Positions 1 through 64,000 of a stretch of 64,000 bases of DNA are shown here, in pieces. A program made the position numbers and the translations under genes. The stretch lies in NCBI GenBank assembly GCA_039881145.1, contig JAYKKI010000027.1, forward strand, positions 20,285,001 through 20,349,000, written 5' to 3'. Positions within the stretch are counted from its first letter, which is position 1. Every line of letters starts with the position of its first letter. Source of the stretch: Druceiella hillmani (lineage: Eukaryota; Arthropoda; Insecta; Lepidoptera; Hepialidae). The notes under the pieces were generated by a model. It did not search any database, was not told where the DNA came from, and was given only the letters and a program-made list of their open reading frames with translations.

Positions 1-1859
1 ATTTTAAATTATTAAATATTATTTTTAATGTTGCAAATATTTAGCCTGCCTTATATTGTATTCCAAAAAAATATGAATCTCTCAAGTACAGTGCGATACA
101 GTTTTCCTATAAATTCGAAGTAATCTCTGGAAATTTTATTTAAAATTTATTAGTTAGTTATCTTCACAGCAAAACTAGGTATGTTAAATAGTTTTGGAAA
201 TAGAGGGTTATTTATTTTTTTATTTATTTTTCAGTGTCATTGGAAATATGCTAATTAAAATAGTAAACAAATTTTGTTTAGTATTTTGTGTACTAAAATT
301 TCGTAACTACTTTTTGCCAATAAAATAATTTCGTTGTGTTCGTAGATATTTAACTTACACCGCACTATTATATCATAGATATACAACAAAGAACACACAC
401 GACTGTACATATTTATTCTAAACTAATGAAACTTTATCAACTTCACTGGCGTATAGATTTTGATCAACGTCAACCTTTATATAATTATTTTTAATATTAT
501 CTTGTGCACAAGTGACTATAATTTTCTTTTTATTAGACGGGACCTATTCCATTAAAACATCGCAATAAATTAATTAATAGCCTAATACTGTCAAATTTAG
601 TTTTATTATGTATTGTTGAATATTTTGTGAAACATTTTTTCATTATACGTACTGAAGACTCAAACCAATAGTGTACGTTGTCCTTCATTCGTAGATATTA
701 TTGCATTTTTCAATTCAACGCTGGATGCTGTGCGCTTAGGGGATTGAGCGCTTAATGGGCAATGTTGCTTTAAAGGTTTCGGGCTATTGTGGAATGTTTA
801 GGTAGCTCGTTATATAATGGAGTATCTTAATACTGTGCCGTCTAATTGGTGCGATGTGATAACTATTCTAGAAATATCGCGAAACTGGAGGTCAGGTTTA
901 AAAAGTACCTGCTATAGGCGCAAGGATCTATGTGAGATCTACTGCCCCGGGTTAAAGGACCTTTGTTAGAGTGATAATTTGATAGTTATTACTGTGATAT
1001 TATCCTTTTTATTTTATTGCTTATTACATTAGTAAAGAGCGACTGGACGTCTCTCGTTGTGAGTTGGTGGTTTTTTGTAATATTGATTTGAGTTATAAAT
1101 TGTGAGTACACTAGTGTGCGAAGTGTATAATATCGGGTTCTCACTCAGACTTATAGTTAGTGGATACATGATATAAAACAAGTATTGCGTTATTACTATT
1201 TTTAATAAAGAAACAAAGCATTGTGAGATTTGTGATAAAAATAGAAGTTTTTAGTTAAACGTTGATGGAAGTTTTGTGTCGGGAGTAGAGATGGAACAAG
1301 ATTGCATTCATATGACCGTGATAATATGCGAGTAGCGTTCGAATCTTCTCGCTTCAGTTTCACATGTCCAATAATTACTTATGAAGCTACTTGTGGAAGC
1401 GATGTAGGAGAAGGGGGCGGTAGGGCAGCTTGCTTTGGTGTGATACTCGGACATATGGGTTAACTAAACTTAGTAAACTTAGTTTCCGTGGATCCTAAAT
1501 ACTAGAGAGTAAACTATACCCATACTTCAGCATGAGTCTGAGTGAAAAGGAAAGCTTTAAATATATTATACAGGTTGAGTATTAGATGTACATGTACCGT
1601 TCATATGCTGAATTAATGTTGTAAAAACCAATGGTTTCGTTGAATACCCTGTAAGGAGGTACTTATAGATCTTGTGATTTGGTTAAATTGTAAAATTTAC
1701 GGCCAAATAGAGGAATGGGTATTTATGAAGTTGATAAAGAAAAAATACTGACATAATTTTAAATCCTACTAAAATTGAGTTCATTAATTAGGGTGAACAA
1801 AATATTATGTAATGATTTTAGTTTAATATCAATAATTTGTGGACAAGCTTAACCATTTA
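1..1859. other. Unit start block of A; no gene
   Basis: AT-rich sequence with no credible ORF and stops in all frames. The first 200 bases are the start block, paralogous to about 14450-14640 of the S half, which shows the common ancestry of the halves. A motif around 1520-1560 (TGAGTCTGAGTGAAAAG) recurs in all halves just upstream of beta. I recognise no host or transposon protein here. Confidence 0.7.
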
Positions 1860-2270
1860 CGGCTGTTACTGATGTCGCCATCAAAACTTACATCATCGAC
1901 ATTGCAGAGAATTATCTCTCAATGCGTAAATCAAACTTTTTACAGCCGCCCACATATCATATAATGTGTTTTGCCGATTCGTAGGTAAGCAAAAGAAAGC
2001 CATTAGTTTGGAAAAGTATCTTACACTGACGTTTTTATAAAGGCTCGTAATAAAGCATGAGCAACATGTCCCCAGTGGCCAATATAACCCGCAGACTGGA
2101 TGCCGAACGTCTCCGGGCCGGACGATCAAACAACGCGCGGTATCATTGTAAATAAGCTTTGACTGTGTTACTATGTAAATAAGGGGAATAAATAAAGAGC
2201 AAGGTAAGGGCGGGGGTTGCGGCAGGGTGGCTGCAACTCCCGCCCTTACCTTGCTCGTAGGAACACTCTA
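1860..2270. repeat. Beta block, copy A-L, with hairpin
   Basis: A locally GC-rich block (around 2090-2260) in AT-rich surroundings. It is the best conserved of the beta copies and has 7 relatives in the window. It ends in a strong hairpin: 24-bp arms at 2197-2220 and 2233-2256, with one mismatch and a 12-base loop. A 78-codon minus-strand ORF (1893-2129) is open here, but its frame is not kept in all copies and I recognise no protein, so I do not call a gene. Confidence 0.8.
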
Positions 2271-4439
2271 GCGTGTAATAAACACCTGTAGAGTGAAGAG
2301 GCTAAGCGAGTGCTGTAAATATGTACGGCGAATGTCCTAGTCAGTGTTTGAAGACAAATTTTTGTATTTCGTGTTTTTCAAATACAAGCTGCTAATTTTT
2401 TTGTAGAGTAGGTTTAAAGTTATTCCTTAATAAGTTTAAGCAATTTAATAGCATGAAAGCACTAACTAAACTTGATTTTCTTTGAACAAATTTTTCTTAA
2501 TTTTAATCTTAAAACGTACGGGACTCACTCAGGATAGACCGATAAACGAAAGTATTTTACAAAATGTTAACAAAACAATGTTTCAGTTTGTAAATTTTTA
2601 TCGATTGTAAACTAAAAATAGTAAAAGTTTCAGTTTTTAGAATAAAATCATCCAGTATTGTTCTGTAGTGGCGGCACTTTTTAAATCTCGCTTCAAGATT
2701 TTAGAAGACTTTAATTATAATTTTTTTATAGATCAACTCGTTTTAACGTCTCACATTCGTTTCAGCTGCAGTAATGTTATTGGATCATTGACGTGCACTT
2801 TATTTTAACTAACATCATAGAAAGAAGTCCGCTGGTGTCAAAGTCCAGAAGCCTGGAATTATCGTTACTATTTCAAAGCAGTTTTTGGGGAAATATCTCA
2901 GGCACAACTTGAATGCAATATGATAGGTAGCATTATCTCATTGGAACCACATTGGTATTATGGACCTGCAATTATTGAAATATTTATGCCAAAAAGTATC
3001 TTAACATAGAAATTCAATTATTTGAAATAAATGTAATTGCATGGACTCAACGATATTTGAAAAAATACGAATCGGTGATTCCCCACTTCGTTATTCTAGT
3101 TCGAATGATTACTTTCCTTGAGTTGTTTTTTTTAATGTGAAGCCTGGATTTTCAGCGCTCTCTGTAGTGGCAGTTCTTTTTATTCACAAAACCATTCAGA
3201 TGTAAATGGATTTCGTCTGAGAAGACGATTTGAAGGTATGTAGTCAATAAAGTTAGAGAATTTTTCCAGCATTTCATTTGCACATATGTATCTTGATTCA
3301 AGATCTGTTTTTTTCAAATTTTATCCAAATTAATTATTACACTATCCGCAAGGCAGATAAAGGTTTACGAAGAGAGACATCTGCACTTACAGACTCTACT
3401 TATTATTCGCTCAACGCTTTCGTTAGTACGGAACGATTGCATACGAACTTGAGGTTTAGATTTTTGTGTTAATCTAGAATCAGTCGATCCACTCTTTAAT
3501 CTCAACACTTGGATATACACTGGTTTTGCATAACCTGTATACCGATCTAAAAAACACAACGAACAGGCACATAAATTTGAGTATTTTTGTGAAATAAGCG
3601 GACGCAAAAAGTGCTCTGTGCCTGTGGTGAACTTACTCATCGGGGCTAAAATTGCAAACGGCGCGCTACGCGACAATAACTTTCGTAAGCCTTAATTATT
3701 TCGTTCACTAGATAGAGCGAGACAGAGAGTGCATTTTTTTGACTGACAGTACATACGCCTTATTATTTTTAGCTTCTAAAAATCATAATCAAGTGAAATG
3801 AAAATAGAAATTGATTAATTTTTTATTTTATATTGATTTTGCCAAATAACAAATAATTATTAGCACCGAAAATATTAAAATATTTTTTGAGTCAGAAAAG
3901 GCAATATGTATTAAGAAAAACGATGTACTTAAGGAAAACGTATTGAAAATAATTTTTCATGGTGAACATGCATCACATTATAATTATATTTATTTAAAAT
4001 AAAATTATCGTGAAAAAGGTTTATGGCTTAATAGATTTACGAGTAATTAAAAGCATATTTATATATGCGTGAATTGCAAACTGCAGACTTGTTTTGCTCT
4101 AAGTAATTTATTTATTTATTTACTTATTTCCTATACGGAGATGTTTACGAACTCAATTCCACGACAGTGGGTTTTGCCTTGACTGGGGAACATATAGTTT
4201 TTGCTTGTGAGTTCTCGTATATTTATTTGATGCAAATGCGATATCTCTTAAAAAGAATGGGACAAAACAGTTTTCCGCCCAACAATTTTTATAAGAAAAT
4301 GAGCAAAAGTTAAATCCTTTCGAAAGTCGAAAGTATGGAAATTGATTATGCCCAGGATAATAGAAGCATGGAATGTAAAATGGAAGTAAACATATTATAT
4401 TTTATATAAATACTTTAAAAAGTTTTTTGAACTCTCAAG
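2271..4439. other. L-half spacer of A; no gene
   Basis: AT-rich, repeated exactly at 22666-24834. Around 2825-3010 a plus-strand reading frame resembles the 62-codon ORF of unit C at 45511-45699, but it is interrupted here. Around 3590-3740 there is a more GC-rich stretch (CGCGCTACGCGACAATAAC) shared with B and D. I see no recognisable gene. Confidence 0.6.
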
Positions 4440-6353: not shown

Positions 6354-6451
<98 letters not shown>

Positions 6452-8047: not shown

Positions 8048-8560
8048 TTAAACTGAGCCAAAGCTTTTTAAAATTGCCTCTGCCAGTTTCGGTGGTTCGT
8101 TGCTATACAAGAATTCTTGCAGCAGAACGCTCAGTGGGAACATTCTCATTTTAGGATGTTTGCTGCGAAAGCTGGGCTCTCAAAGATATGCTTGGGGGAG
8201 AGCTGGACTTCCGGGCAGTTCTTGCAATGAGTATAAGTTCCGAAATTGTCTGGGTGCATTTCCATGGCTTTAAGGTAATTAGTTCTTAGTCGGGCTATTG
8301 TAGATGTGATATGTCCAGAGCAGTTGAGATCAGTAATGAGGGGTTTTTTAAAGGTGTGGATCAAAATTCTGCACCTTGTTACTGCGTCAGCATTTGCAAG
8401 TATGAAGGTGTTATGTAAATATGGTGGCGAATCGAGGTCTCTGGCTTCTTTGGCTAGAGTATCAGTGCACTCGTTTCCCTCTATATTGACGTGTTTAGGA
8501 ATCCATTGCATCGTACAGAATTTTTCCGCTATCTGTCTGTTCTGGTAACGTCTGATCCTA
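8048..8560 (-). pseudogene. RNase H C-terminal part of a Jockey/I-like LINE (A)
   Basis: A 121-codon open stretch (8146-8511) begins MQWIPKHVNIEGNECTDTLA. WIPxHVxIxGNExxDxLAKEA is the end of the RNase H domain carried at the ORF2 C terminus of several arthropod non-LTR retrotransposons. Asp17 would be the last catalytic aspartate. Near the end, C96, C99 and H108 fit the CxxC...H...C knuckle that follows RNase H in such elements, but the last Cys is Ser112. A frameshift near 8150 moves the terminal part (EFLYSNEPPKLAEAILKSF, stop at 8048) to another frame. Endonuclease, RT and the first half of RNase H are absent, so it is a 5'-truncated dead copy. Similar relics are at 28422-28934 and 59413-59905. 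Confidence 0.82.
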
Positions 8561-8689
8561 AAGGAACTTCAGATCGATTGCTACTCCTGGCCAGCCAAAT
8601 CATTGTATTTAACTTTGCATCGTAACATTTAAGCAAAAAGATAAAAGTGTTTCGAGGTCAATTGTTGCAGTCGAATGCATCCTCAAATC

Positions 8690-9120
8690 AAATACATACA
8701 CTAAATGTGATCAATATGGATGTTAACGAGTGGCAGCGACGAGAGTGAAATAAATTTCGTCACGCGCTAAATAAAGATATCGATCAACGCTGCGCCCCAA
8801 TAAACTGTGGCAGCAAACAAATAACTGACTGAATTGATTCGCGAAATCTATCTTCTTCAGTGGTAATGAAACGCAAATAGATACAGACCAGAGTTAACTT
8901 TTCGCGGAGCTGCTGCTTCAGCGATAGTGAAACCCACATAGATTCGAGTCACAGTTAGCTTTATGCACAACTGTATTTTGTGAAGGATTACGGAGTCAAA
9001 TGTATTCAAGTGCACTAGGAGCACAATACGATTTGTGTTAGTTTTGCGCATAACCAACTCAGGAGCTGAATTGTCTTTATGCATTTCGAAGCATGGCGGT
9101 TTTGATAATTTATTAGAAAG
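8690..9120. repeat. Delta block, copy A-1
   Basis: First of three delta copies in A. The core is GTGATCAATATGG, then a GC-richer stretch with ATAAAGATATCG and AAACTGTGGCAG, then AATGAAACGCAAATAGAT. About 100 bases before it lies a short upstream block shared with the other deltas (ACATTTAAGC). This copy is cut on its right by the LINE insertion region at 9161. Confidence 0.85.
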
Positions 9121-9160
9121 TAGATTTACTTTCGATTTAGATTTACTTTTTTGTAGATAT

Positions 9161-10823
9161 AATAATGATAATAATAATAAAGCTTTATTAAATTCCATAT
9201 AAAAAGTTACATACATGCAACATGCAATAAAAAATAAATAATAAATAACAACAAAAATTAAAAAGGATGACATTTGTATACAATGTATAAAAAATTAAAA
9301 TAGAATAGTAAAATTAATTAATGCTCATGATAATTTACATTGACAATTATTATATAAAATTTTTATATTATTTATTAAATTTATATGGACCCCCTTAGGG
9401 TAAAAAAGCCTCCTCCAAAGTTTGCCATTCGTCTCTATCTTTGACTGTTTGGAGCCATTCGCAACCTGCTGTAGCCCCGATCTCGTCAGCTCATCTGGCA
9501 TTGAGTCTGCTCGGCATCTTCGGTAATTTTTTCCTCTGAGAAACTTGATGAACGTTGAGTGGTGGATGCACTGAGAGTCTTGTCCTTTTTGTGTGTTCGT
9601 GATTCCTGGGTGTTTGGGATTATAAGTTATTTTCAGGAGATGTTGAAAGGGTTCTTTTCTTGTTTCCTGTTGTGATTTCCGGGTTGTTTTTTAATATGAT
9701 TAATTTATCGTATTTTATTATAGCTCTCTTTCCTTTTTCTTTCTCGATTCTTACTTGTATCTGCAATTCCTTTCTTTTCTCTAATACTTTTAGCGGATAA
9801 TCTTCTTTTATGTAGTATGCAGTGTCGTTGAGAGCTCGTTTTTGTTTGAGAATATTGATTTTTATTCCAAGTGTCGTAAATGTTATGGTGACCGGACGGG
9901 GTTTGTCTGTTCTTTTACCAATTCTTCTTATGGCTTGTAAGTCCTTACAGTTTATTTTCGTTGTGAAGTACTTGTTTATAAAGTTCATCATATTTTTTTC
10001 TAACTCTAAATAGGATTGTTCCCTTCCTCCACTCCAAAAAATACTAGATTGCGCTGTCTAGCCTCTTTTTCTAAATAATAAAGTTGCTTGCCTTGATTGT
10101 TTACTTTTTCTTCCAGTTTTTGCAGTTTGGTGTCCCAGACTTGGAGTTTTTTGTCCATGATTTCGTTGATGTTTTTTGTAATTTCCTCTGTTATTTTTTC
10201 TGCACTTTTTGAAATCATATTTTTTTGTTCTTCCATGTCGTTTTGTATTTTTTGAAGTGTTTTCATTATTTCCTCCATAGTCAACAATCTATGTCTATAA
10301 CGCCCTCTTGTGGTATTAGTGAAGAGCTTGGTAGACGTTCGATCGTATAGTTACGCACTTTCTCTAGTAGTATCTCCACTAGCCTCCAGATAGCGGTGCT
10401 AACGTGCGCTAGTCGTCATTAAATGGCGCTAAACGTCTTTGTTTAGCAAAGAAGTGTCTAGAAATTATGTTTGATGACTCATCTTACAGATAGGTTTTAG
10501 GTTATTTTTTTCTTTGTATCACTATTTTTCGTATCTAGCACTGAGTTCGCTTTTTTCATGTATTTAATGTTTTTCGTACTGCACTTTGTAGTGTCTCTTT
10601 AATGGTATTTTTTGTTGTTTTAATAACTTTTTCTCACTATTAATGTTCGTAGTAATTATCACAATTTCTTAAAAGTCACTTGGTATTCACTTTGTTCTTC
10701 ATATTGTATCAGTGAATCGCACTTTAAGTTATAGTTTTTAGCACTTTTAATCACTTTTTACACTTGAAATACATATTTTTTACCGTAATTATTGCGGACA
10801 CGAAGTAAGCCGTGCACGTGTTT
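9161..10823 (-). mobile_element. Internally deleted LINE, non-autonomous (A)
   Basis: A 1.66-kb minus-strand insertion flanked by a 14-bp direct repeat, TTTTTTGTAGATAT, at 9147-9160 and 10824-10837, which I take as the target-site duplication. Reading on the minus strand there is a 5' UTR (10823 to about 10279), ORF1, the last part of ORF2, a short 3' UTR, and a TTATTATTATT-type tail at 9161-9181 as seen in several LINE families. The endonuclease and RT are missing, so any movement would need help from a full-length relative. Confidence 0.8.
9395..10278 (-). pseudogene. LINE ORF1 fused to ORF2 tail, disrupted (A)
   Basis: Same ORF1 as in unit B (29792-30580), but broken. One base is lost near 10020 (TTCCCTTCC against TTCGCCTTCC in B), giving a frameshift after the RNLVFFGVEEG motif. 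A nonsense codon at about 9619 replaces a Lys of B. After the end of ORF1 a TGA at 9491-9493 interrupts a frame that continues as ADEIGATAGCEWLQTVKDRD and ends EEAFLP at 9395; that stretch matches the usual end of LINE ORF2 (RWADDI..TAG..W...A.DR..W..LEEAF). The TGA stands where the conserved Trp of RWADD would be. It cannot make a full ORF1 protein. Confidence 0.78.
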
Positions 10824-10837
10824 TTTTTTGTAGATAT

Positions 10838-11423
10838 TATAGAATAATTCACTAAAAATTTCTATACATATGATTAGTATCGAATATAAAACCTTTCCTT
10901 TGATAAATTATTAAATAAATTACTATATAGAGTATATTTGACGTCCATTTGGTAGAAATTCATTATTGATAATTAAATGAAACTACGTGATGTAGTATTA
11001 TTTTTACTTTCTTTAAGTTCTTTACCACGACCTAGATTAGGTTCTTATTCTAATCTTAAGAATTTATACTTGAATTTTAAGATTTGGAAGTTTGTGAAAT
11101 GATTCTGATTTAGTTTTACTCCCGATAAATGGGAAAGCATTAGTTTTAAATTTAGAAAATAATTTTCAAATTTGGATTTGATTGGCAAAAGAAATAAATG
11201 CATGGAAAGAAAATTTGAGAAAATTACGAGAAATATATCGCAACCCGAGATACCTCAAATATAGAGAGATAAATATTATAATATGGCCACCGAGAAATAT
11301 TTTTGAAATATTACAGTTCTCAGGCTTCGATCATCAACAGTCCTGAAGTAAATAAAAAATGAAGATAATAAATTGTGAACATATTTCCTAACCCGATTTC
11401 TCCCATAAAGTATACAACTCACG
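10838..11423. other. Spacer with half of the palindrome sequence (A)
   Basis: AT-rich. Positions about 10920-11045 match the left flank and outer half of one arm of the palindrome found at 36436-36712 (ATTAAATGAAACTACGTGAT at about 10975), without the second arm. The same half-copy is at about 31225-31340 and 61195-61310. No gene seen. Confidence 0.65.
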
Positions 11424-11645
11424 TCCGTATGCACCACACACCACCAGGACTCTCAGTCGGATTTACTGACAGGTAAAAAAGTATTTTGTATGGATACTTT
11501 AGGAATTAGACCGCGCAATATGGTACGGTCGGTAAAGTAGACTCTTATTCCGACGTAACTGACAGTTAATGAGAAACAGAAATATGTCCTTAACTGTCAG
11601 TAAGTCCGACTGACAGTCTTGATTGCGTATGGTACATATGGCCGT
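11424..11645. mobile_element. Foldback MITE-like element (A)
   Basis: Imperfect terminal inverted repeats. The 25-base arm at 11448-11472 (starting GACTCTCAGTCGG) pairs with 11594-11618 with two mismatches, and weaker pairing continues outward to about 11424 and 11645. An inner pair (ACTGACAGTTAA at 11558, TTAACTGTCAGT at 11590) adds a second stem. There is no coding capacity, and I could not find a clean target-site duplication, so the superfamily is open. Confidence 0.65.
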
Positions 11646-13127
11646 TAGAGACCGGAAACAAACATTTGCTATTAGGAATAACTCCAAAAACCTTCAAATT
11701 TTTTGAGACTTTATTAAAATTGAAAAATTATTTCTCTGATTTACATTTATTACACGGTTTTCTTTAATTGATAATGACAAAAAGATCTTTTTTAATTTTT
11801 AAATAATTTTAAGATGAATTTTAAATAATTTTAAGATGGATTATACTACCATAAAAACTACTAAACAAAAACTAGTGCAAAATTTAAAAGTAATTAAAAT
11901 TTATAAAACATACTCTGCGCTAATACCTTTTAGTAACCAGCTTTACGACGGTACTTATCACCAGATTCGTTAACATTGTAAGACATAAAGACGAAAATTA
12001 ATGACTTCAAGAATGAACATTGCCTACTTGTGACAACTAACATGATAATAAACTGCAACAGTTATATTGTTGTTGTTTAATATCTTCGCTAAGGAGATAA
12101 TAAAATGCTATCAGGCATTTTAAAAAAGAGTTGTGTTTCTTTGTAAAGATAAATTTAAAATTTTGTGAACGACATTTATGAAAAATGTCGGAAAAAGCTT
12201 AAATTTTCCAGAGGCGGATACGAGCGGCATATTCAAAATTCTATAGTACGATGTTTCCTTTCTGTACAATAATCACATGCTGCAAGTCTATAAACCAATC
12301 ATTAGAGTTCTCTCTTTCTATTCCTATAAATACTTAAAACGTTATCATTTCAAATGCTAAATAAAAGAAGCATTAAGTAATAATTTAGAAATAAAAACTG
12401 TTTATAATTTGACACGTTTTGAACGTTATTTAAAAAGTTAAATAAATATTATCTACGAGATATTAAAGATATCTATGAGAATAGAGAAATATACATTCTT
12501 TCAAGAAAATAAAAGTAAAATGAGTGATCGTGTGTTGTAGTGCGATTGCTCACCTCTAAAAGACAGTCGAAGACACCCTTAAACATGTCTAGTGGGTTTA
12601 TTGTCCAGACATTGTCTAACTTGATGCGAGAGTGTCGGCTTCTTATTACCATGAGATGTCAGCGGTATTGACGTAGGCCAGTCATGGCAATTAGAAAACA
12701 AGGTTTTCCAAAAAAGGTGGTAATTTATTTTTAATTCTAGCAACACATTTACTCGATTTTTATTCAAAAAATAGATCAGAAATGTACATATAAACAATCT
12801 TATCAGTTTATTTTGGTACCGACTGTTTTAAAGCAAATTCAGACCTATTGCTATTCTCGGTTACGCTAATTGTTGGGTTTAGCTTTTTATCGTAACATTT
12901 AAGATAAAAGATACAATTGATTTAAGGGGAAATTGTTTTAAAAGCAGTGTGTATGCTTAATATTTCTAGGCATCATTTAATATTTCTGGTTGGGAATATA
13001 CTTATCAATGGAAAACTTCGATTTTGGGAAAAGAAAATAAGAATTTAAATTAGTTATTGTAATACTTTTGTATATATTTTCCTACCTCTGACGTCAATTA
13101 GAAAAGTCGCTAGACGTTGTGTACTCG
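11646..13127. other. Spacer of A, partly absent from D; no gene
   Basis: AT-rich, present in A and B. About 11890-12735 is missing from D, where sequence equivalent to 11885 runs into sequence equivalent to 12740. It may be an insertion in the A/B lineage, but no inverted repeats or target-site duplication are evident. A 72-codon minus ORF at 12579-12797 resembles nothing I know. Confidence 0.5.
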
Positions 13128-13358
13128 TTATTGGACCATGGAGGTATTCACGTACATGCGAGTACTCACACGACATACGCATAAAACATGCGACATGACA
13201 TACCCACACGACATACGCGCAGACATGAAGGGACTTAATATGCAAACGTATATTTGTATCTTGAACCCAAACAAATACGTTTGCACTGAATCCAAGTATA
13301 AATGCTGATATTTTTCAAAAGTTTTCGCATCTAAAATCGCTTCAGCATCTTCGTACAT
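13128..13358 (-). other. Conserved short ORF of unknown nature (A)
   Basis: A 76-codon minus-strand frame starting MYEDAEAILDAKTFEK. The same frame is open in B (33398-33646) and D (62560-62787), and the first 40 residues are almost unchanged while the following part, translated from a CATAC/CACACGACATACG-rich stretch, varies. It lies about 100 bases beyond a delta block in the minus direction in all three units. It could be an exon relic; the EDAEAIL helix faintly recalls a P450 segment, but I cannot support that. No start context or splice site is convincing. Confidence 0.35.
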
Positions 13359-13469
13359 AAAAGGAGAGTTGACACATCGGAAGATAGGTATTGGAGTTGA
13401 AACACTTTTCTTTTATCTTATATAGTTTAGTATAATTTAAAATATAATAAATAACTTAATTCCTCAATC

Positions 13470-17188: not shown

Positions 17189-17260
<72 letters not shown>

Positions 17261-28934: not shown

Positions 28935-29054
28935 AAGAAACTTCAGATCGATTGCTACTCCTGGCCAGCCAAATCATTGTATTTAACTTTGCATCGTAAT
29001 ATTTAAGCTAAAAGATAAAATTGTTTCGAGGTTAATTGTTGCTGTCGAATACAT

Positions 29055-33646: not shown

Positions 33647-33704
33647 TTTTCTTTTATGGTATATAGTTTAGTATAATTTAAAATGTAATAAATAACTTAA
33701 TTCC

Positions 33705-41432: not shown

Positions 41433-41440
41433 ATCTCAGT

Positions 41441-51021: not shown

Positions 51022-51430
51022 TTACACAGAATCATCAATGCCAGCTCCGTACAGTGAAACACTGTCATTCAGGATGTTCAATGCACTTTTTGGTCTTGCC
51101 TACGTTGTATTCTACCCTCTTTACATGTACGTGGGGCTTATTCGTCCGCTCTGGTTATTCGTAGTTCGTCAGATGTGCTCGCCCATTGGTGAGCACTTGA
51201 GCCTGTGGAGATGCCCATTTCATTCAAAGAAGACAACAAAGCAAAAGATCGTTATTCTGCGTGAAACCTCCAAGACACAGCTGCAAAAGTGCGTCTTTGC
51301 TCAAATCTTCGTAGATTGGCTTCATGGATTCTGTAACATCTATAGGAAGAGCACTGTAGCTGTGTTTGAATGAATCTAGAGTGTTTGCAGCTGCCGCTTA
51401 CTTTTCTGCAGGGTACCCTTGAATTGACAA
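51022..51430 (-). pseudogene. Mutator-like transposase fragment with internal deletion (C)
   Basis: Same relic as at 38369-38880, with about 125 bases missing at 51248, which takes out the NNNESL..LIW..PK segment. As in B, the minus-strand end is followed by GTAAGTATAAAC. An 111-codon plus-strand ORF over this region is a shadow. Confidence 0.68.
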
Positions 51431-51894
51431 TCAGAAAAATGCTATTCAAGATGGTTTATACAACTATAAAAACCATTAAACAGAAACTAGGGGAAGACTT
51501 TGAAGAAAAACAAAATAAAATTGAAACATACCTTGCGTCAATTAACAGTATTGCCTATTCTGGTGATGTCCGTTCTCAAAGCAACTTCAGACCGATTTTT
51601 GACCTGCCAAATCATTCAATTTAGCTTGCATGGTAACATTTAAGCTAAAAGGTACAAATGACTTGAGGGGAAATTTATTTGAGAGCGTTGTGTACTACGC
51701 AAAATTTATTATTTCTGGCTGAGAATATATTTATCAAAATGAAAACTGAGATTTTGGAAAAGGATAATGATTTAAATTACTTATTACAATATTTTTGTAT
51801 TTATTTTTCCTACATGTATTACATTAAATAAATACTTGTATCTGTAAAGTTTTGCAGTCGAATCCTGTTTAATTTAGAATGTAATAGATACCTT

Positions 51895-52400
51895 AATTCC
51901 TCAATCCAAATTCATCCACTAAATGTGATCAATATGGTGGCCAACGGGCGGCGAGAGACTCGAGTGAAATAAATCCCGTCGCACGATAAATAACGATATC
52001 GGCCAGCGCTCCGCTCCAATAAACTGTGGCAGAAAACAAACGACTGACTGAAATTATTTGCGAAATCTATCTTCTTCAGTGGTAATGAAACGCAAATAGA
52101 TACGGACCATAGTAAACTTTGCGTGCCGCTGTATTTTATGAAGGCTTACGAAGCTAAATGCATTCAAGTGCACTAGAGTGTGTCAATGTTATGCTTAGGT
52201 GGGGGCTGAAGCGAATTGTGTTTAGATATTTTGAAGCATGTCTGGTTTAATAATTCATTAGTATGTACATTTACTAGTGAACTATGTTTTATTTGTGTGG
52301 ACAGTTTATATGAGGTCTGATTTGGGTAGCGCGATTTAATTGATTAAAACGCCATCTATCGTGGCTAGTTGGAAGCGGTATTAACATGTAAGTTTACGAG
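51895..52400. repeat. Delta block, copy C-3
   Basis: S-type delta and its tail; the only full delta left in C. The region from about 51545 carries the pre-delta block. Confidence 0.85.
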
Positions 52401-52860
52401 TACTGAAATTTTTTTGAATTTGTTGTTTTAAAAAACAATGAAAATATCAAAGGGATAAGCATTTTATTTATAATTGGATGCAATTAAAGTAAGCACAGAG
52501 TCGGATGCAATTAAAGTAAGCAGAAAAAAGCTATCAAAACATTAAAAGAATAAGTGTGTTTCTAGTAACCTGAAGTAACTCATTTTTATTTATAATCCAA
52601 CACTTATTTGTAAGAATGTCTGGACCTAAAGAATTTGCAGAGATCTGGCCTTCTTTAAGATTTTAGACAATTTCTAAAATTATTTTCATAAAAAAATGTT
52701 TCTCTTTTGCCTAATAAACGATATTCACTTCCTAATAAACAACACTCTCTGTTTTAAATTTATTGCATATATAACCACCCTAATAATATATACTTTTATG
52801 GTACATATTCATTTGGTACAATGTTCTAACGTTTTTTTTGTCATTTCACTCAATAAAATA

Positions 52861-52990
52861 ACGTTAGAATAACAATATTCTAACTTTGTTGAATGTGTTT
52901 TATACACATTCAATAAAATTACGTTAGAATAACAATATTCTAACTTTACTGAATGTGTTGTATACACATTCAATAAAATCACGTTAGAAT
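52861..52990. repeat. 60-bp tandem repeat, two copies (C)
   Basis: Units at 52861-52920 and 52921-52980, each beginning ACGTTAGAATAACAATATTC, with the start of a third at 52981. Each unit holds two inverted repeats. The site has no copy in A, one in B and two in D. Confidence 0.9.
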
Positions 52991-53465
52991 ATTTAGACCT
53001 TCAGACCAAATACTCTACAAAATATAATTATTTAAAATTACAGTATCAAAAAATGTATGGGTTAGTATTAGTATCGAAAATGAAATATTTTTTTTTATTA
53101 TATAAACTCGATACTCGTTGCAATTTTCATGAATTACAATGCTAATGGAATATTTGTTAAAAAGCTTACTATGCGTTCCATCATGTTGCGGAATTCTCCA
53201 TAATAACACAATTATAAGAATGTTTGTGCAAACAATTTTTTTTCATCTACTACCCGGGGTCTCAATGACTCTGTTTGCAAAATACCGCATGTCGCAACAT
53301 GTAAGGGTACATTTATTTTAGCAGCAACGTACAGCTAAACCGTTATAGAGTGAATTCAATCTCAGATCGTGATTCGTTCACAATATTGTTCAAAATAATA
53401 TTTTTAATGATTACTCTTATCTACAAAATATAATAAACATTTCTATAACAGTTTTGCTGCCGAGA

Positions 53466-53525
53466 TGGCAAATGACTACCTGGCAAATGACTACCTGGCA
53501 AATGACTACCTGTCAAATGACTGTG
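53466..53525. repeat. 15-bp minisatellite (C)
   Basis: Three exact copies of TGGCAAATGACTACC followed by a decayed fourth; A and B have one copy at the equivalent site (about 19831 and 41539). Confidence 0.9.
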
Positions 53526-56500
53526 ATTTGATGGCCTGAATATTCGAACTTTATTTTGTTGTACGAAATACGAGTAGGTGCAACAAATGAAAAGGGAGGT
53601 TTCGTTTGTTATGAATTATGAATATTAGATAATAATTACCAATATTCATATGGTTTTTTTTTCAATAATACATCTTATATATTCCCATAATTCATGACCA
53701 AATTCTCCTGAGGATTGGTTATGTAAAAAAATTGTTTTCAGAATTTTATTTTCATTATTTTCTCAACATTTATGCATTTTTAAAAATAGAAATATTACAC
53801 CTATTAGTACCGAAAGTTGAGGTTAACAAATAAAAAAAAAACGCATAAATGTGAATCGAAGGCATTAGATACGTAATCATGTCTTTTTCTTGTGTCCGTC
53901 GATGGCGAAAATATATTTTTAGAAGTCGACATCATTCACGGTTGTGAATTTTGTTTTATTGAATTTAAGTTTCGGAATATAAAATTTAATTTGAGTATTT
54001 GTAAACTATTAATTGCTCTGTATTTTTTTAAAATTATTTACTAATATTAACATTATTTTTAACCTTGTAAATATTTTTGTCCACTGTATATCGTATTCCA
54101 AAAAAAAAGGAATTTCTCAAGAAATGTGAGATATAGTTTTCCTATAAATTTGAAGTAAGTTCTTGAAATTTTACTTAAAATTTATTAGTTGAGTTGTTAT
54201 TTTGACAGCAAAACCAGGTATATCCAATGGTTTTGGAAACAGAGGGTTATTTTTTTTACATATTTTTCAGCGTAACATTGGAGATACGCTAATTAAAATA
54301 ATTAACAAATTTTTGAAAATTTGATAACTAGTGTTTACCAACAACATTCTACATGATACAAGAAATTAACGAAAATATTTCTAGTACTTAATTTGCCTAT
54401 TTCAAATCTCTATAAAATGAATATTTCTATAATGTTTATGTTAAATATTTTTGAGCATCGATAACTAATTTCAGTTTTCTGCGTCAGGCGATTTCAGATA
54501 AGGAAAGAAATGGAACAGACCGACAGACGGGCACGTGGGTGTCCTTATAACTGTTCTGTATTTTTCTTTTTGTGGCACGAAACCCTTGTTAAATCGAAAT
54601 GGTGCCTCGAGGAATATTTATAAAATTTTGAAATGTTCGTAGATATTTTGACTTACACTCCACTATTATATGATAGATATACAACAAAGAACACATACGA
54701 CTGCGGATATATTTATTGTACACTCATAAAACTTTATTAATTTCCCCCATGTAAAGATTTTTTTCAATATTGTTCTTTCTGTCAATCTTTTTTTTAAATA
54801 TCATCTTAAGCATGACTGACTATAATTTTATTTTTAATAGACGAGACTTATTCCGTCAAAACATCGCAATAAATTAATTAATAACCTAATGCTGTCAAGT
54901 TTAGTTCCATTAGTTTAGTTCCATTATATATATTTTGTAAGTTTTAGGAGATTTTTTCCATTAGACCTTCTAAAAACTCAAACCAATAATGTATTATTGC
55001 ATTTCTCAATTCAACGTTGGATGCTGTGTGCTTAGGGGGCTGAGCGCTTAACGGGCCATGTCGCTTTAAAGATAGTCTGTTCGGGGATAGTCTATTGTGG
55101 AATGTTTAGGTAGTTCGTGATATAATGGGGTATCTTAACACTGTAATGTCCAGTTCGTGTTATGTAAAAACTATCCTAGAAATATCGCGATACTATGCGA
55201 GACAGGATTAAAAAGGACCGAGATGATTTTACGATTTACAAAAACTTTTGCAATCTTTCGAAAAGCATCTGTGACAGGCGGAAGGATCTACACCAGATGA
55301 AAGATCTACGTTAATATTTTAATTTAATAGCTATTGTTATGGTTTTATCTTCATGATTTTATTATTGATTACTTATTATATGGGTGAAGAGCGACTGGAT
55401 ACAACGTTATGAATTGGTGGTTTTTTGTAATATTGATTTGAGTGATAATTTGTGTGTACACTAGTGTACGAAATTAGTTTATAATAACAGTTTCATAATC
55501 GGACTTATAATTAGTGGATAAATAATATAAAACAAGTATTGCGTTATTACTGTTTTTAATAAAGAAAGAAAGCATTGTGAGATTGTGATAAAAATAGAAG
55601 TTTTTAGTTAAACATTGATGGAAGTTTTGTGTCGGGAGTAGAGATGGAATAATATGATGGAATAATATGATCGTCGTCATCTTCATATGATAGTCATAAT
55701 ATACGAGTAACGTTCTTCTCGCTTCAGTTTCAGGCGATCAGTAATTATTTACGATGATACCTGCGGGAGTGGAAGCGATGTTGGAGATAGGTGAGAGCGG
55801 GGGGACTCAGGAGCTGAATTGTCTTTAGATATTTTGAAACACGTCTGTTTTAATAATTCATTACATTTACTAGTGAACTATCTTTTATTTGCGCGGAGAG
55901 TTTATATGAGGTCTGATTTGGGTAGCGCGATTTAATTTATTAAAACGCCATCTATTGTAGCCAGTCGAAAGCGGTATGAATTTGTCAGTATATTGATTTT
56001 TTTTTAAATTTGTTGTAATATTTTTTCAGCCTAATTTATTGTAAAAAATTAAATAAAAAATCAAGAAAAATAGAATATATAAGAATAGGGTTAGGGTAGT
56101 TTGCATTGCTGTGATACTCGGACATATGCGTTAACTAAACTTAGCAAACTTAGTTTCCGTGGATCCTAAAAACTAGGGAGTAAACCATATTCGTACGTCC
56201 ATAGCGCCACTCAAACATGAGTCTGAGTGAAAAGGAAAAGCTTTAAATATGTTATACAGGTTGGGGTTTAGCTATACATGTACCGTTCATTTGCTGAATT
56301 AATGTTGTAAAAAACTAGTGGTTTCGTTGAACAGCCTGTAAGGAGGTACTTATCGATCTCGTGATTTGGTTAAATTGTAAGGTTTACGCCCCAAATAGAA
56401 GAATGGGTGTTTATGAAGTTGATAAAGAAAAAATATTGACATAATTTTAAATCTTACTAAAAATTGAAGTCTTTAATTAGGATGAACAAAATTTTACGTA

Positions 56501-56554
56501 ATTATTTTAGTTTAATATCTATAATTTGGGGACAAGCTTAACCATTTACGGCTG
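53526..56554. other. End of C and start block of D; no gene
   Basis: Start block of D from about 54027. Hairpin repeat at about 54515-54595. Displaced delta tail at about 55803-56095, as in C. Nearly identical to C throughout. No gene. Confidence 0.65.
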
Positions 56555-56965
56555 TTACTGATGTCGCCATCAAAACTTACATCATCGACATTGCAGAGAA
56601 TTATATCTCAATGCGTAAATCAAACATTTTACAGCCGCCCACATATCATATAATGTGTTTTGCCGATTCGTAAGTACGCAAAAGAAAGCCATTAGTTTGG
56701 AAAAGTATTTTATACTGACATTTTTATAAGGGCTCGTAATAAAGCACGAGCAACATGTCCCCAGTGGCCAATATAACCCGCAGACTGGATGCCGAACGTC
56801 TCCGGGCCGGACGATCAGACAACGCGCGGTATCATTGTAAATAAGCTTTGACTGTGTTACTATGTAAATAAGGGGAGTAAATAAAGAGCAAGGTAAGGGC
56901 GGGGGTTGCGGCAGGGTGGCTGCAATTCCCACCCTTACCTTGCTCGTAGGAACACTCTAGCGTGT
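56555..56965. repeat. Beta block, copy D-L (switches type), with hairpin
   Basis: C-like up to AAAGCACGAG at about 56750, then A/B-like (CAACATGTCC, GCCGAACGTCTCCGG, TGTTACTATGTAAATAAGGGG). The hairpin has two further changes in its right arm (CAATTCCCACCC). The longest beta ORF, 116 codons on the minus strand (56582-56932), is here; it shares its lower part with the 78-codon frame of A but resembles no known protein. Confidence 0.8.
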
Positions 56966-59412
56966 AATAAACACCTGTAGAGTGAAGAGGCTAAGCGAGT
57001 GCTGTAAATATGTACGACGAATGTCCTAGTAAGTGTTTGAAGACAAAGTTTTGTATTTCGTGTTTTTTAAATATAAGCTGGTAATTTTTTAGTAGAGTGG
57101 GCTTAATGTTATTCCTTAATAAGTTTAAGCAATTTAATAGCATGAAAGCACTAACTAAACTCGATTTTCTTTGAACAAATTTTTCTTAATATTAATCTTA
57201 AAACGTACGGGATTCACGCATGATAGACCGATAAACAAAAGTATTTTACAAAATGTTAACAAAACAATGTTTCAGTTTGTAAATTTTTATCGATTGTAAA
57301 CTAAAAATAGTAAAAATTTTAGTTTTTAGAATAAAATCATCCAGTATTGTTCTGTAGTGGCGGCACTTTTTTAATCTCGCTTCAAGATTTTAGAAGACTT
57401 TAATTAGAATTTGTTTATAGATCAACTCGTATTAAAGTCTAACATTCGTTTCAGCTGCAGTAATGTTTTTGGGTCATTGACGTGCACTTTACTTTTTAAC
57501 TAACATCATAGAAAGAAGTGCGCTGGTGTCAAAGTCCAGAAGCCACGAATTATTGTTACTATTTCAAAGCAGTTTTTGGGGAAATATCTCAGTCACAACT
57601 TCAATGCAATCCGATTAGAACCACATAATGGTATTATAAACCTGCAATTATTTAAATATTTATGCCAAAAAGTATCTTAACATAGAAATTTAACTATTTG
57701 AAATAACTGTAATTGCATGGACTCAACGATATTTGAAAAAAATACGAATCGGTGATTCCCCACTTCGTTATTCTAGTTAGAATGGTTACTTTCCTTGAGT
57801 TGTTTTTTTTAATTTTAAGCCTGGATTTTCAGCGCTCTCTGTAGTGGCAGTTCTTTTTATTCACAAAACCATTCAGATGTAAATGGATTTCGTCTTAGAA
57901 GACGATTTGAAGTTATGTAGTCACTAAAGTTAGAGATTTTTTCCTGCATGTCATTTGCACATATGTATCTTGATTCAAGATCTGCTTTTTTCAAATTTTA
58001 CCCAAATTAATTATTACACTAACCGCAAGGCAGATAAAAGTTTACGCGTGGAGGCATCCGCACTTATAGACTCTACTTATTATTCGCTCAACGCTTTCGT
58101 TGGTACGGAACGATTGTATACGAACTTGAGGTTTAGATTTTTGCGTTAATCTAGAATCAGTCGATCCACTCTTTAATCTCAACACTTGGATATACACTGG
58201 TTTTGCATATCCTGTATTCCGATCTAAAAAATGCAACGAACAGGCATATAAATTTGGCTATATTTGCAAAATAACCGGACGCAAAAAGTACTGTGGTGAA
58301 CTTACTCATCGGGGCTAAAATTGCAAACAGCGCACTACGCGACAATACCTTTCGTAAGCCTTAATTTTTTCGTTCACTTGATAGAGCGAGACAGAAAGTG
58401 CATTTTTTTGGCCAACTGTATGTACGTCTTTACATTTTTAGCTTCTAAAAATGATAATCAAGCGAAATGAAATTAGAAATTGATTAAATTTTTTATTTTG
58501 CCTATTGACACTTAAATAATTATTAGCACTTACGAAAATATTAAAATATTTTTATTTTTAATTTTGATAGGTAAGAAAAGGCAACAAGATGTAGTCATGT
58601 AGTACTTAAGGAAAACGTCATTTTTCATGGTGAACATGCACCACATTATAATTATGTTTATTTAAAACAAAGTTATCGTAAAATAGGTCTCCGATAAGAA
58701 AAGAAAACATTTACTCAAGCGGGCTTAACATATTTACGAATAATTAAATCATTCTTGTATATGAGTGCATTGTAAACTGCAGACTTGTCTTGCTGTTAAT
58801 ATCTTATTTATTTATTTACATATTTCCCACACAACATACATTGAAGGTTATCAATACGTAATGATAATTAAAACAAACCACTATCAACTATTAAAATAAA
58901 ATCAAGCGGAACGTCCGGAATTTGATACAACAAAATTTGAATACATTCTCATTCGCTACAAATATGTCATATACTGGAATACTTGTGAGGAGATGTTTAC
59001 AAACTCAATTCCATGACATAGTGGGTAATACATAGTTTTTGTTTGTGATTTGTTGCGGACCTCTGTTAGTAATAGATTATATTTTAGTACTGATCATAAT
59101 ATCAAAGTTTGAATTTAGTCCTATGTATTTCGATTTGGCGACAAGCGGGCATGTGCGATCTGCACCGAAGATTACCAGGTAACAATTATCATCGTTTTGA
59201 CATGAGTAACTGTGGAATATCTTGTTTTCAGTGTAAGATTTCGAGGTTGTTTTCAATGTCTTCGATTATATAATTATTTTTTCGTGCAGATAGAAATTTT
59301 TGTATGAAATATTTTTTGTGCGTTTTATTCGTCAATATGTTCATTGTTGCTGTTGTTATCGTGTTCCACATAGATAGTAAAATAAATAATAGTAAAAGGC
59401 GAAAAAAAGAGG
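56966..59412. other. L-half spacer of D; no gene
   Basis: Follows A 2271-4215, then joins the equivalent of A about 7590 at about 59040. Carries the GC-richer stretch near 58300-58400. Nothing coding recognised. Confidence 0.6.
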
Positions 59413-59905
59413 ATTAAATTGAGTCAAAGCTTTTTAAACTTGCCTCCGTCAGTTTCGCTGCTTCGTTGCTATACAAGATTTCTCATAGCAGATCGCTCAG
59501 AGGAGACTCCCACTTTTAGGATGTTTGCTGCGAAAGCTGGGCACTCAAAAATATGCTTGAGGGATAGCTGGACTTCCGGGTAGTTCTTGCAATGAATATG
59601 GCGAATTTTCATGCCTTTAAGGTAATTAGTTCTTAGTCGGGCTATTGTAAATGTGATATGTCTAGAGCACTTGAGATCAATAATGATGGGTTTCTTAAAG
59701 GTGCGGACCAAAATTCTGCATCTTGCCGCTGCGTCAGCATCTGCAAGTATGATGGTGTTATGTAAATATGGTGACGAATCGAGGTCTCTGGCTTCTTTGG
59801 CTAGAGTATTAGCGCACTCGTTTCCCTCTATATTGACGTGTGCAGGAATCTATTGCATCGTACAGGTTTTTCCGTTATCTGTCTGTTCTGGTAACATATG
59901 ATCCT
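59413..59905 (-). pseudogene. RNase H tail of a Jockey/I-like LINE (D)
   Basis: Third copy of the relic. The RNase H end is interrupted, and the longest open part (59469-59711) covers only the region after it. In the metal-binding knuckle D keeps the last Cys (HIFECPAFAANILK) lost in A and B, but its second Cys is Tyr (HCKNYPEV). A frameshift follows ANILK, as in the others. It is more decayed than A or B, so it separated earlier or evolved without conversion. Confidence 0.75.
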
Positions 59906-60024
59906 AAAAAAAACTTCAGATTATGCTACTCCTGGCCTGCCAAATCATTGTATTTAACTTTGCATCGTAACATTTAAGCTAAAAGATAAAATTGATTCGA
60001 GGTTAATTGTTGCAGTCGAATATA

Positions 60025-60510
60025 TCCGTGAATCAAATACATCCATTAAATGTGTTCAATATGGTGGTTAATGAGTGACAACTCAAGTGAAATAAATCCC
60101 GTCGCGCGCTAAATAAAGATATCAGTCAGCGTTCCTCTTTAATAAACTGTGGCAGCAAAAAAACGGCTGACTGAATTGATTCGCGTAATACATCTTCTTC
60201 AGTGGTAATGAAACGCAAATGGATTCGGATCATAGTTAGCTTTGTGCGCTGTATTTTGTGAAGGTTTACGGAGTCAAACGCATTCAAGTGCACTAGAGTA
60301 CAATACGATTTGTATTCGTTTTGCACCTAATCGACTCAGGAGCTGAATTGTCTTTATGCATTTCGAAGAATGGCGGTTTTAATAATTAATTAGAAAGTAG
60401 ATTTCCTAGTGAATTATCTTTTAATTGCTGTTTGTGTAATAACTGATTTTGGTAGCGCGATTTACTATTTTAAAACGCCATCTATTGCGGTCAGTTGGAA
60501 ATAGTATTAA
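60025..60510. repeat. Delta block, copy D-1, with tail
   Basis: Only delta-1 with its natural tail (GGTAGCGCGATTTACTATTT, GCCATCTATTGCGG), since A and B have the LINE region there instead. Confidence 0.82.
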
Positions 60511-61760
60511 CATGTCAATATATTGAAAATTTTTAATCTTATAATATTTCTTCAATCTAAAATCTGTTGTTGTAAAAAATGAATAAAAACAGATAAAAAT
60601 ATCAAAGCGATAAGTATTTTGTGAGTAATTCGATGCAATTAAAGTAAGCAAGTAAAACAGCATTTAAAATTTTAAAAGGGTGGGTATTTTCTTAGTACAT
60701 TGCAGCAATTCAATTTTTATTATAGTTTATCACTTTTTTATAAGGTATATATACCTATAGATTTTGTAGAGGTGTGGAAAATATTAGACAATTTTAAATG
60801 TTATGTTAATAAAAAGTTCGTTTATCCATTTCGCTGTTTATCGATGAGAATGACTCGATAAACCTTGAATGAAGGTTCGTATACAAACCTTCATTTACGT
60901 ATAATGAACAAATGTGATTCTTTTACATTTACAAAACTGTTTCATACGCTGCATTAGCTACTCAATATGGAACTGGACCATCGTAGAGTTGTGAATATAT
61001 GTTTTTTTTTGGAAATTGAATACGTTTAAATAACTGTTCTGTTCATATAAGGTAAAGAGAAAAATAGTTTACTTGATTGCGAGTTCTTACATTGAAGTGT
61101 AAGTTATTTCTCGAGTTTTTATTGTTCATTTCGATACTTATGATTAGTATCGAATATAAAACCTTTCCTTTGATAAATTATTAAATTAAATACTATATAG
61201 AATATATTTGGCGTTAATTTGGTAGAAATTCATTATTGATAATTAAATGAAACTACGTGATGTAGTATTATTTTTACTTTCTTTAAGTTCTTTACCACGA
61301 CCTAGATTACGTTCTTATTCTAATCTTAAGAATTTATACTTGAATTTTAAGATTTGGAAGTTTTTGAAATGATTCTGATTTAGTTTTATTCCCGATAAAA
61401 AGGAAAACATTAGTTTTAAATTTAGAAAATAATTTTCAAATTTGGATTTGATTGGCAAAAGAAATAAATGTATGAAAAGAAAATTTGTGTGTAAACTACT
61501 TTTTACATTAATTCCAGTGACTTACGAGTATTTAAACACGAATATTGTGTTGATGACTTCAAAAAATTACAAGAAAAAAGCGCAACCTCAGATACTTCAA
61601 ATATAGAGAGATAAATATTGTGATATGGCCATCGGGAAATATTTTGAAACATTATAGTTCTCAGGCTTCGATCATGAACAGTCCTGAAGTAAATAAAAAG
61701 TGGAGATAATGAATTGTGAATATATTTCCTAAGCCGATTTCTCCCATAAACTATGCTACT
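60511..61760. other. Spacer of D without the LINE; half-palindrome
   Basis: About 60400-61135 has no counterpart in A and B. From 61140 (GATTAGTATCGAATATAAAA) it rejoins A at about 10872, including the half-palindrome (about 61195-61310). No gene. Confidence 0.6.
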
Positions 61761-61976
61761 TCCGTGTCCACCACACACGGTCAGAACTCTCAGTCGGATT
61801 TACTAACGGTTAAAAAAGTATTTTGTATGGATACTTTAGGATTTAGATCGCGCAATAGAGTACGCTCGGTAAAGTAGACACTTATTCCGACTTGACTGAC
61901 AGTTAATGAGAAACAGAAATATGTCATTAACTGTCAGTAAGTCCGACTGAGAGTCTTGCGTGTGGTGCACATGGCT
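61761..61976. mobile_element. Foldback MITE-like element (D)
   Basis: Best preserved outer ends of this element: CCGTGTCCACCACACACGG...AACTCTCAGTCGG on the left pairs with CCGACTGAGAGTCTTGCGTG...GGTGCACATGG on the right. Non-coding. Confidence 0.65.
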
Positions 61977-62559
61977 GTTAGAGACCGGAAACAAACATTT
62001 GTCATTAGGAATAACTCCAAAAGACTTTTTATTAAAATTGAAAATATATATCTCTAATTTACATATTTTACAGTGTTTTCTTGAATTGATAATGAAAAAA
62101 GACCTATAAAAATGCTACTTAAGACGGATTATAACACGACAAAAATTACTAAACAAAAATTAGTGCAAAAATTAGTTCAGTCAGCGGGTTATATATTTAA
62201 AATTCTAGCGAAACAATTACTCGACCCATATTCAAAAAATAGATCAAAAATGTATATAACACAATCTTATCACTTTATTTTGTTACCGCCTGTTCCTAAA
62301 GCAAATTCAGACCAATTAATATTCACAGTCACCCTAATCATTGGGTTTAGCTTTGTATCGTAAGATTTAAGATAAAGGTACAATCGATTTGAGGGGAAAT
62401 TGATTTAAGAGCTTTGTTAATGCTTAATATTTCGGGGCACCATTTAATATTTCTGGCTGGGAATATATTTATAAATAAAAAACTATGATTTTGGAAAAAT
62501 GATAAGAATTTGAATTAATTTTTACAATACTTTTGCATATATTTTTCCTAATTCTGATG

Positions 62560-62787
62560 TCAATTATAAAAGTCGCTAGACGTTATTATTAGACCATGGA
62601 GGTATTCACGTACACGCGAGTACCCACACGACATACGCATAAAACATGTGACATACCCACACGACATACGCGTAGACATGAAGGGAATTATTATGGAAAC
62701 GTATGTCTGTATCTTAAAACCAAACAAATACGTTTGCACTGAATCCACGTACAAATGCTGCTCTTTTTCAAAAGTTTTCGCATCCAA
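62560..62787 (-). other. Conserved short ORF of unknown nature (D)
   Basis: Third copy of the EDAEAILDAKTFEK frame (see 13128-13358). It is open on the minus strand from about 62815 down through 62560, so the frame survives in all three units that contain the region. Confidence 0.35.
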
Positions 62788-62929
62788 AATAGCTTCAGCA
62801 TCTTCGTAGGTAAAAGAAGAGTTGACACATCGGAAGATAAATATTTTTAAGGTATTGGAGTTGAAGCACTTTTATTTTATCGTATATAGTTTAGTATAAT
62901 TTAAAATATAATAAATAACTTAATTCCTC

Positions 62930-63420
62930 AATCCAAATACATCCACTAAATGTGATCAATATGGTGGCCAACGGGCGGCGAGAGACTCGAGTGAAATAAA
63001 TCCCGTCGCGCGCTAAATAAAGATATCGGCCAGCGCTCCGCTCCAGCAAACTGTGGCAGTAAACAAACGACTGACTGAAATTATTCGTGAAATCTGTCTT
63101 ATTCAGTGGTAATGAAACGCAAATAGATACAGACCACAGTTAACTTTGCGCGCAGCTGTATTTTATGAAGGCTTATGGAGCTAAATGCATTCAAGTGCAC
63201 TAGAGTGTGTCAATGTTATGCTTAGCTGGGAGCTGAAGCGAATTGTGTTTAGATATTTTGAAGCATGTCTGGTTTAATAATTCATTAGTATGTACATTTA
63301 CTAGTGAACTATGTTTTATTTGTGTGGACAGTTTACATGAGGTCTGATTTGGGTAGCGCGATTTAATTTATTAAAACGCTATCTATCGTGGCTAGTTGGA
63401 AGCGGTATTAACATGTAAGT
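62930..63420. repeat. Delta block, copy D-2/3 hybrid
   Basis: Begins as delta-2 in context and carries its CAGTAAACAAACG marker (about 63056), then shows the delta-3 marker CTGAAATTATTCG and the delta-3 tail. The whole interval between the second and third delta, including an entire S start, is missing from D. Confidence 0.8.
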
Positions 63421-63870
63421 TTACGAGTTCTGAATTTTTTTTAAATTTGTTATTTTAAAAAACAATGAAAATATTAAAGGGTACAATGAAATAACATTTT
63501 ATTTATCATTGGATGCAATTAAAGTAAGCACAGAAAAAAGCTATCAAAACATTAAAAGAATAAGTGTTTTCCTAGTAACCTGAAGTAACTCATTTCTATT
63601 TATAATCCAACACTTATTTGTAAGAATGTCTGGACCTAAAGAATTTGCAGAGATCTGGCCTTCTTTAAGATTTTAGACAATTTCTAAAATTATTTTCATA
63701 AAAAAATGTTTCTCTTTTGCCTAATAAACGATATCCACTTCCTAATAACCAACACTCTCTGTTTTAAATTTATTGCATATATAACCACCCTAATAATATA
63801 TACTTTTATGGTACATATTCATTTGGTACAATGTTCTAACGTTTTTTTTGTCATTTCACTCAATAAAATA

Positions 63871-64000
63871 ACGTTAGAATAACAATATTCTAACTTTGTT
63901 GAATGTGTTTTATACACATTCAATAAAATTACGTTAGAATAACAATATTCTAACTTTACTGAATGTGTTGTATACACATTCAATAAAATCACGTTAGAAT
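63871..64000. repeat. 60-bp tandem repeat, at least two copies (D)
   Basis: Units at 63871-63930 and 63931-63990; a third begins at 63991 and is cut by the window end, so the true copy number is unknown here. Confidence 0.9.

Follow-up and report, generated by a model that had tools for sequence, protein, structure and literature searches.

A locus-restricted tandem array in the ghost moth Druceiella hillmani with two short cores that remain alike among diverged copies

The 64,000-nucleotide stretch of the Druceiella hillmani genome analysed here, hereafter the window (contig JAYKKI010000027.1, called C27; C27:20,285,001-20,349,000, with w denoting a window coordinate), lies entirely within one tandem array. 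This array is approximately 129 kb long, from about w -37,400 to about w +92,000. It resembles an old local duplication array, restricted to one locus and next to an ordinary gene, rather than satellite DNA as usually understood. It carries 16 copies each of two elements, B and D, and in both elements a short core is far more alike among the copies than the surrounding flanks are. The explanation that we favour, tentatively and at slightly less than even chances, is that of an old array of putative regulatory or long non-coding RNA (lncRNA) units, which changes by unequal crossing-over and in which the cores are kept alike by selection together with gene conversion.

With regard to the cores, the mean majority share in windows of 30 columns of the 16-copy B alignment is 0.85-0.97 in the core and 0.38-0.93 in the flank. 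The D core reaches 0.83-0.97 up to position 18664 or so, where a 60-bp insertion in one class interrupts it, and 0.73-0.92 beyond, with 0.11-0.89 in the flank. Each element gives 120 pairs of copies, and a minimum of 150 alignable flank columns left 118 pairs for B and 87 for D. The core is less diverged than the flank in 110 of the 118 B pairs and in 82 of the 87 D pairs, and in all pairs with a flank difference above 25% (60/60 for B and 55/55 for D), the pairs not being independent in either count. In these diverged pairs, the difference is 0.110 in the core and 0.277 in the flank for B, and 0.130 and 0.305 for D, which corresponds to core/flank ratios of 0.40 and 0.43, respectively. The lowest ratios are found at the array-end copies (0.27-0.36 for B and 0.14-0.30 for D). 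A block permutation test, for which 10 B and 9 D rows were chosen, gave no window as low as the observed one in 2,000 trials for each element. At the scale of motifs, the near-invariant sites of B are clustered (9 of 5,000 permutations, one dissenting copy being tolerated). Each of the 16 B cores contains two to three occurrences of RTAAAYA, which we take, as a candidate label only, to be a forkhead-like motif.

The arrangement of the copies points to a common unit. Fifteen of the 16 B copies share one orientation, as do all 16 core-bearing D copies; at least five further D fragments lack the core. Twelve of the 16 B copies are preceded by an equally oriented D of their own, which lies 3.4-4.8 kb upstream in the L type (7/7), 1.8 kb in the S type (4/6) and 3.7 kb in the leftmost copy. 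The other four B copies lack one, and four third-class D copies precede another D. Because B and D share their orientation and most B copies are preceded by their own D, we regard D-A-B as the basic monomer. B and D could not be treated as copies of one element, the best E value between them being only 0.47. The sole inverted B copy lies within a palindrome of approximately 4 kb, with arms 91% identical, to the left of the window (w -33842 to -29896). The right end of the array holds a coreless D piece (w 85215-85490) and a diverged B without a preceding D (w 88919-89965), as if it were decaying. Two L-type D elements each have a 60-bp sequence repeated in tandem, about 2.4 times, close to their end (52850-52991 and 63860-64000).

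Self-alignment of the window with 200 kb of flanks showed that the array extends past the window on both sides and is bordered by unique DNA on the left and on the right. In the window, the L-type A blocks begin at about 1, 20396, 42080 and 54036, and outside it at -20397, 65046 and 77245, giving periods of 20,398, 20,395, 21,684, 11,956, 11,010 and 12,199 bp. The two half types, L and S, are approximately 25% different in alignable flanks. An earlier note on the window had described four head-to-tail composite units of 11-22 kb with a nested L/S structure. The self-alignment, the periods of 11,010-21,684 bp and the two diverged half types bear this description out. Its further statement that a pair of related halves plus three delta blocks makes up each unit is correct for units 1 and 2 and fails for units 3 and 4. 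As the note stated, the units contain transposon relics, and their content is otherwise non-coding as far as tested; the far greater likeness of the two cores had escaped it.

Two stretches of the window were searched against the whole assembly (2,586,002,920 bases in 181 contigs); the following counts are lower bounds. Window positions 1-3000 gave at least 69 matches, 40 of them in the array on C27. The 29 matches elsewhere are all shorter than 400 bp, score at most 78.8 bits, and none touches the B core. The D element at 18100-19334 gave at least 32 matches, 31 of which lie in the array; the remaining one, 62 bp long, is on contig C52, outside the D core. A 70-bp inverted match of the D core (80%) lies approximately 8 kb past the right end of the array, at w 99873-99942. 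For the two stretches queried, the B and D cores thus have no match beyond the neighbourhood of the array. In prokaryote genomes there were 55 pattern matches, with no relative among them, and among plasmids there was no match. To the left of the array, on the + strand, we found a RUN-domain exon at about w -108,000 (E 7.9e-22) and, at about w -76,900, a partial FYVE domain that falls below the cut-off (E 0.0015). Presumably, they belong to a RUFY-like gene, and the array begins approximately 39 kb past its last recognised exon. On the other side, as far as about w 204,000, no gene was recognised among open frames picked by length and GC (guanine plus cytosine) content. The right flank also contains a repetitive open frame rich in Phe and Leu, in two overlapping frames (w 98556-99229), which is probably a simple-sequence array.

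The D-A-B monomer was duplicated long ago into the L and S classes and later multiplied again, partly very recently. In the mechanism that we propose, the array would expand and contract by unequal crossing-over. Unequal exchange fits because of the near-exact duplication of 20,395 bp and the mosaic identity profiles. The cores of B and D would be protein-bound regulatory DNA, or the promoter and an exon of an lncRNA, repeated downstream of the RUFY-like gene and kept alike by purifying selection and gene conversion.

We consider it very unlikely that the array is a cluster of small protein-coding genes with overlooked exons. Many B and D copies do have open minus-strand frames, of about 30-90 codons, and a pairwise scan of the B core gave an excess of third-position changes on the minus strand. 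However, this excess was not upheld on the deduplicated alignments, in which the third-position fraction of the best open windows (0.40 for B and 0.43 for D) is below the permutation mean (0.52 and 0.51). Moreover, none of the 32 B and D cores has a frame that crosses it without a stop, indels of 1, 2 and 4 bases separate the copies, and no Pfam family was found in six frames of 1-4131, 11451-16100 and 16101-20395. A coding gene in each monomer was rejected on these grounds. The same applies to a frame of 124 amino acids at 1893-2267 on the minus strand, which is fully open over the core in 0 of 16 B copies and is broken by indels in others. A cluster of lncRNA genes on the + strand, with D as promoter and first exon and B as last exon with poly(A) signals, appears unlikely, yet clearly less so than a coding cluster. 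This reading overlaps with the favoured explanation, so the likelihoods given here do not add up to a whole. The position of D upstream of B is consistent with it, as are two or more places in B where 15-16 of the 16 copies have AATAAA on the + strand, although AATAAA is frequent in AT-rich DNA. It is also difficult to reconcile with the third-class D copies that precede another D and with the B copies that lack their own D. Furthermore, 38 window tests of the B and D alignments revealed no conserved RNA fold (lowest z -2.57). A structured RNA or microRNA was likewise rejected: Rfam gave no match in the window at the gathering score. At relaxed limits it gave none in D and 13 in the B region, all below gathering scores and 12 of them on a hairpin confined to L-type B copies. 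This hairpin (27 paired bases, z -9.4) arises from an insertion of at least 20 bases that is missing in S-type B, and its arms are perfect in some L copies and imperfect in others.

Several observations weigh against selection on the cores. The core/flank ratio is 0.41 and 0.37 between L and S, and mostly higher within classes (0.53, 0.74 and 0.79 for B; 0.85, 0.49 and 0.38 for D). Within classes, variable sites are about as dense in the core as in the gap-free columns of the flank, themselves a conserved subset of it: 0.093 and 0.120 in L-type B, 0.150 and 0.152 in S-type B, 0.165 and 0.156 in L-type D, and 0.032 and 0.050 in S-type D, respectively. Fixed differences between L and S, in contrast, are about three times rarer in the cores than in the flanks (0.042 and 0.112 for B; 0.050 and 0.176 for D). 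Incompatible site pairs are commoner in the cores than in the flanks, at 0.32 and 0.12 for B and at 0.20 and 0.14 for D, the last value resting on 28 pairs. Clustering at the scale of motifs is absent in D (913 of 5,000 permutations) and, at zero tolerance, also in B (1,265 of 5,000). Some flank windows are highly conserved as well (0.93 at 1536 and 0.92 at 2292), and the cores were picked from the same alignments that were used to test them. As within-class density is similar while fixed L/S differences are rarer in the cores, conversion is favoured over steady constraint. Polymorphisms shared by the classes occur at 6 of 353 core sites and 1 of 125 flank sites in B, and at 2 of 279 and 0 of 199 in D.

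The within-class densities, the rarer fixed differences and the commoner incompatible pairs would fit a neutral segmental-duplication array in which functionless cores are islands of conversion, exchanging by chance or through break initiation while their flanks diverged. We regard this as a close rival, only somewhat less likely than the favoured explanation; local near-identity between units, such as that of 53367-56366 with the next unit, also speaks for it. However, the islands occupy the same position in all 16 copies of each element, including the end copies and the inverted copy, and the neighbouring flanks were formerly just as convertible. Conversion confined to the cores would require a cause of its own, for example open chromatin that attracts breaks. 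GC-biased conversion is not supported, as the minor variants show no drift to G or C (A/T to G/C, 41 and 38; G/C to A/T, 43 and 64); near-invariant sites are also richer in A and T than variable ones.

With a mutation rate of about 2.9e-9 per site per generation, as in Heliconius, the divergence of alignable L/S flanks (K of 0.30 for B and 0.33 for D) places the L/S split roughly 50 million generations ago, or earlier if conversion acted. Because the split is so old, the array is expected in other ghost moths. At the other extreme is the near-exact duplication, in which w -15566 to 5133 is found again at a distance of 20,395 bp, with one mismatch over 20,700 bp, while most other long copy pairs are approximately 5-16% different. 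That the array as a whole is an assembly artefact is most improbable, as this difference is far above read error and is not made by assembler duplication, and as unique DNA borders the array at either end. The near-exact unit is a separate matter. The HiFi reads of the assembly average 13,685 bp (PMC11484951). As the mean read is shorter than the repeat, the copy number of the unit is unsure, and its second copy could be an artefact, which we hold to be conceivable but doubtful.

The earlier note had called the array a macro-satellite and had pointed to W or Y chromosomes and heterochromatin as settings in which such arrays are known. Its long composite tandem units would suit a W-linked or heterochromatic macro-satellite, and head-to-tail repetition is indeed present. 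Nevertheless, strong matches of the two stretches searched are confined to one locus, and neither the many copies nor the several or large chromosomal sites of a usual satellite were found with them. In addition, a gene with open exons adjoins the array. All matches to TPI (3/3) and 6PGD (6/6), which we take to be lepidopteran Z markers, fall on contig C11 and not on C27; these two markers give no support for Z linkage of C27. The assembly was made from an adult male, and its authors expect the W to be missing (PMC11484951). A location on the W is practically excluded because the assembly comes from a male, and a macro-satellite of the W chromosome or of heterochromatin is hardly tenable as an explanation. 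Some Hepialidae have a W and most non-ditrysian lineages have none (PMC5684275).

The features of the window are collected in Table 1. Among the transposon relics, the retrotransposon frame has 104 relatives, and those with names are presumably Lepidoptera, judging by their genera. Two other repeats were noticed. The A-block stretch 1130-1300 resembles a dispersed repeat, of which C48:7123741-7124573 has five tandem copies at a spacing of 191 bp. A short interspersed repeat occurs in both orientations at 10800-11050, 36440-36690 and about 61200-61400 and in both flanks, with copies approximately 80-96% identical.

Table 1 Features of the window, in window coordinates
Feature	Position	Strand	Remarks
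Near-exact 20,395-bp tandem duplication	1-25528	+	window part
Composite unit 1	1-20395	+	L half, S half, three D
Composite unit 2	20396-42079	+	L half, S half, three D
Composite unit 3	42080-54035	+	start approximate; both halves (L, S), with one full D and a D fragment
Composite unit 4	54036-64000	+	only an L half, with two full D and a D fragment; start approximate, extends to about 65045
B element, L type	1430-2900	+	
B core	1850-2207		reference copy; about 360 bp; conserved in 16/16 copies
Near-perfect hairpin	2197-2256		L-type B only
B element, S type	15213-16089	+	
B element, L type	21825-23295	+	
B element, S type	35559-36448	+	
B element, L type	44105-45581	+	
B element, S type	47494-48855	+	without own D
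B element, L type	56101-57591	+	
D element, third class	8682-9130	+	
D element, S type	13430-14001	+	
D element, L type	18100-19334	+	reference copy
D core	18440-18720		reference copy; about 280 bp; in 16 copies
D element, third class	29056-29504	+	
D element, S type	33671-34187	+	
D element, L type	38999-40244	+	
D element, L type	51549-52820	+	
D element, third class	60034-60815	+	
D element, L type	62894-63830	+	
D fragment	43820-44020	+	without core
D fragment	55816-56016	+	without core
Retrotransposon ORF1-like open frame	29792-30652	-	286 amino acids; broken copy at 9325-10350
Weak RNase H-like relic	8146-8568	-	17 bits, below the cut-off (Pfam, 25.8); comparable frames at 28520-28942 and 59469-59849
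DNA-transposon relic	17546-17986	-	PF20700 in 16/120 related proteins

Tandem gene clusters evolve by birth and death, with graded copy ages, mosaic identity and unequal exchange. The array is alike in these three respects, but no gene was found in its monomer. Insect satellites, according to PMC8042265, have monomers that are generally shorter than 600 bp and exceptionally reach about 2.5 kb. The array shares with them tandem repetition in a moth, whereas it has about 16 strongly diverged copies at one place and monomers of several kb. By analogy, the closest likeness appears to be with DXZ4 or the Firre local repeats, although we do not assign the array to either. The mammalian macrosatellite DXZ4 (PMC3491370) is likewise a large tandem array at a single locus, not obviously coding, located 3' of a conserved gene, and its conservation is limited to a short core in otherwise diverging units. 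In contrast, the units are here 11-22 kb long and composite with two cores, and the conservation is among copies of one genome rather than between species. Two CTCF consensus patterns, searched by pattern match, are absent from all 32 cores. The Firre local repeats, reported as an enhancer or an RNA signal (PMC4820808), are also many in one locus and absent elsewhere. The array is repeated in one locus as well, apart from the 70-bp inverted match of the D core past its right end, but its copies are large direct duplications of whole segments. The array could be the insect equivalent of DXZ4 or Firre. In that case, putatively protein-binding B and D, in about 16 copies each, would jointly serve as a hub of gene regulation or chromatin architecture that has persisted over tens of millions of years amid turnover of the DNA between them; we consider this quite improbable.

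To our knowledge, locus-restricted arrays with conserved cores are known mainly from mammalian X chromosomes. No similar insect case turned up among the papers listed in literature searches, which is weak evidence on what is in print. If the cores are under selection, such arrays would extend to insects, and about 16 diverged copies of two regulatory elements in one genome would provide a natural experiment on which of their bases matter. If conversion alone accounts for the cores, the array shows how islands that resemble the effect of selection form in tandem duplications.

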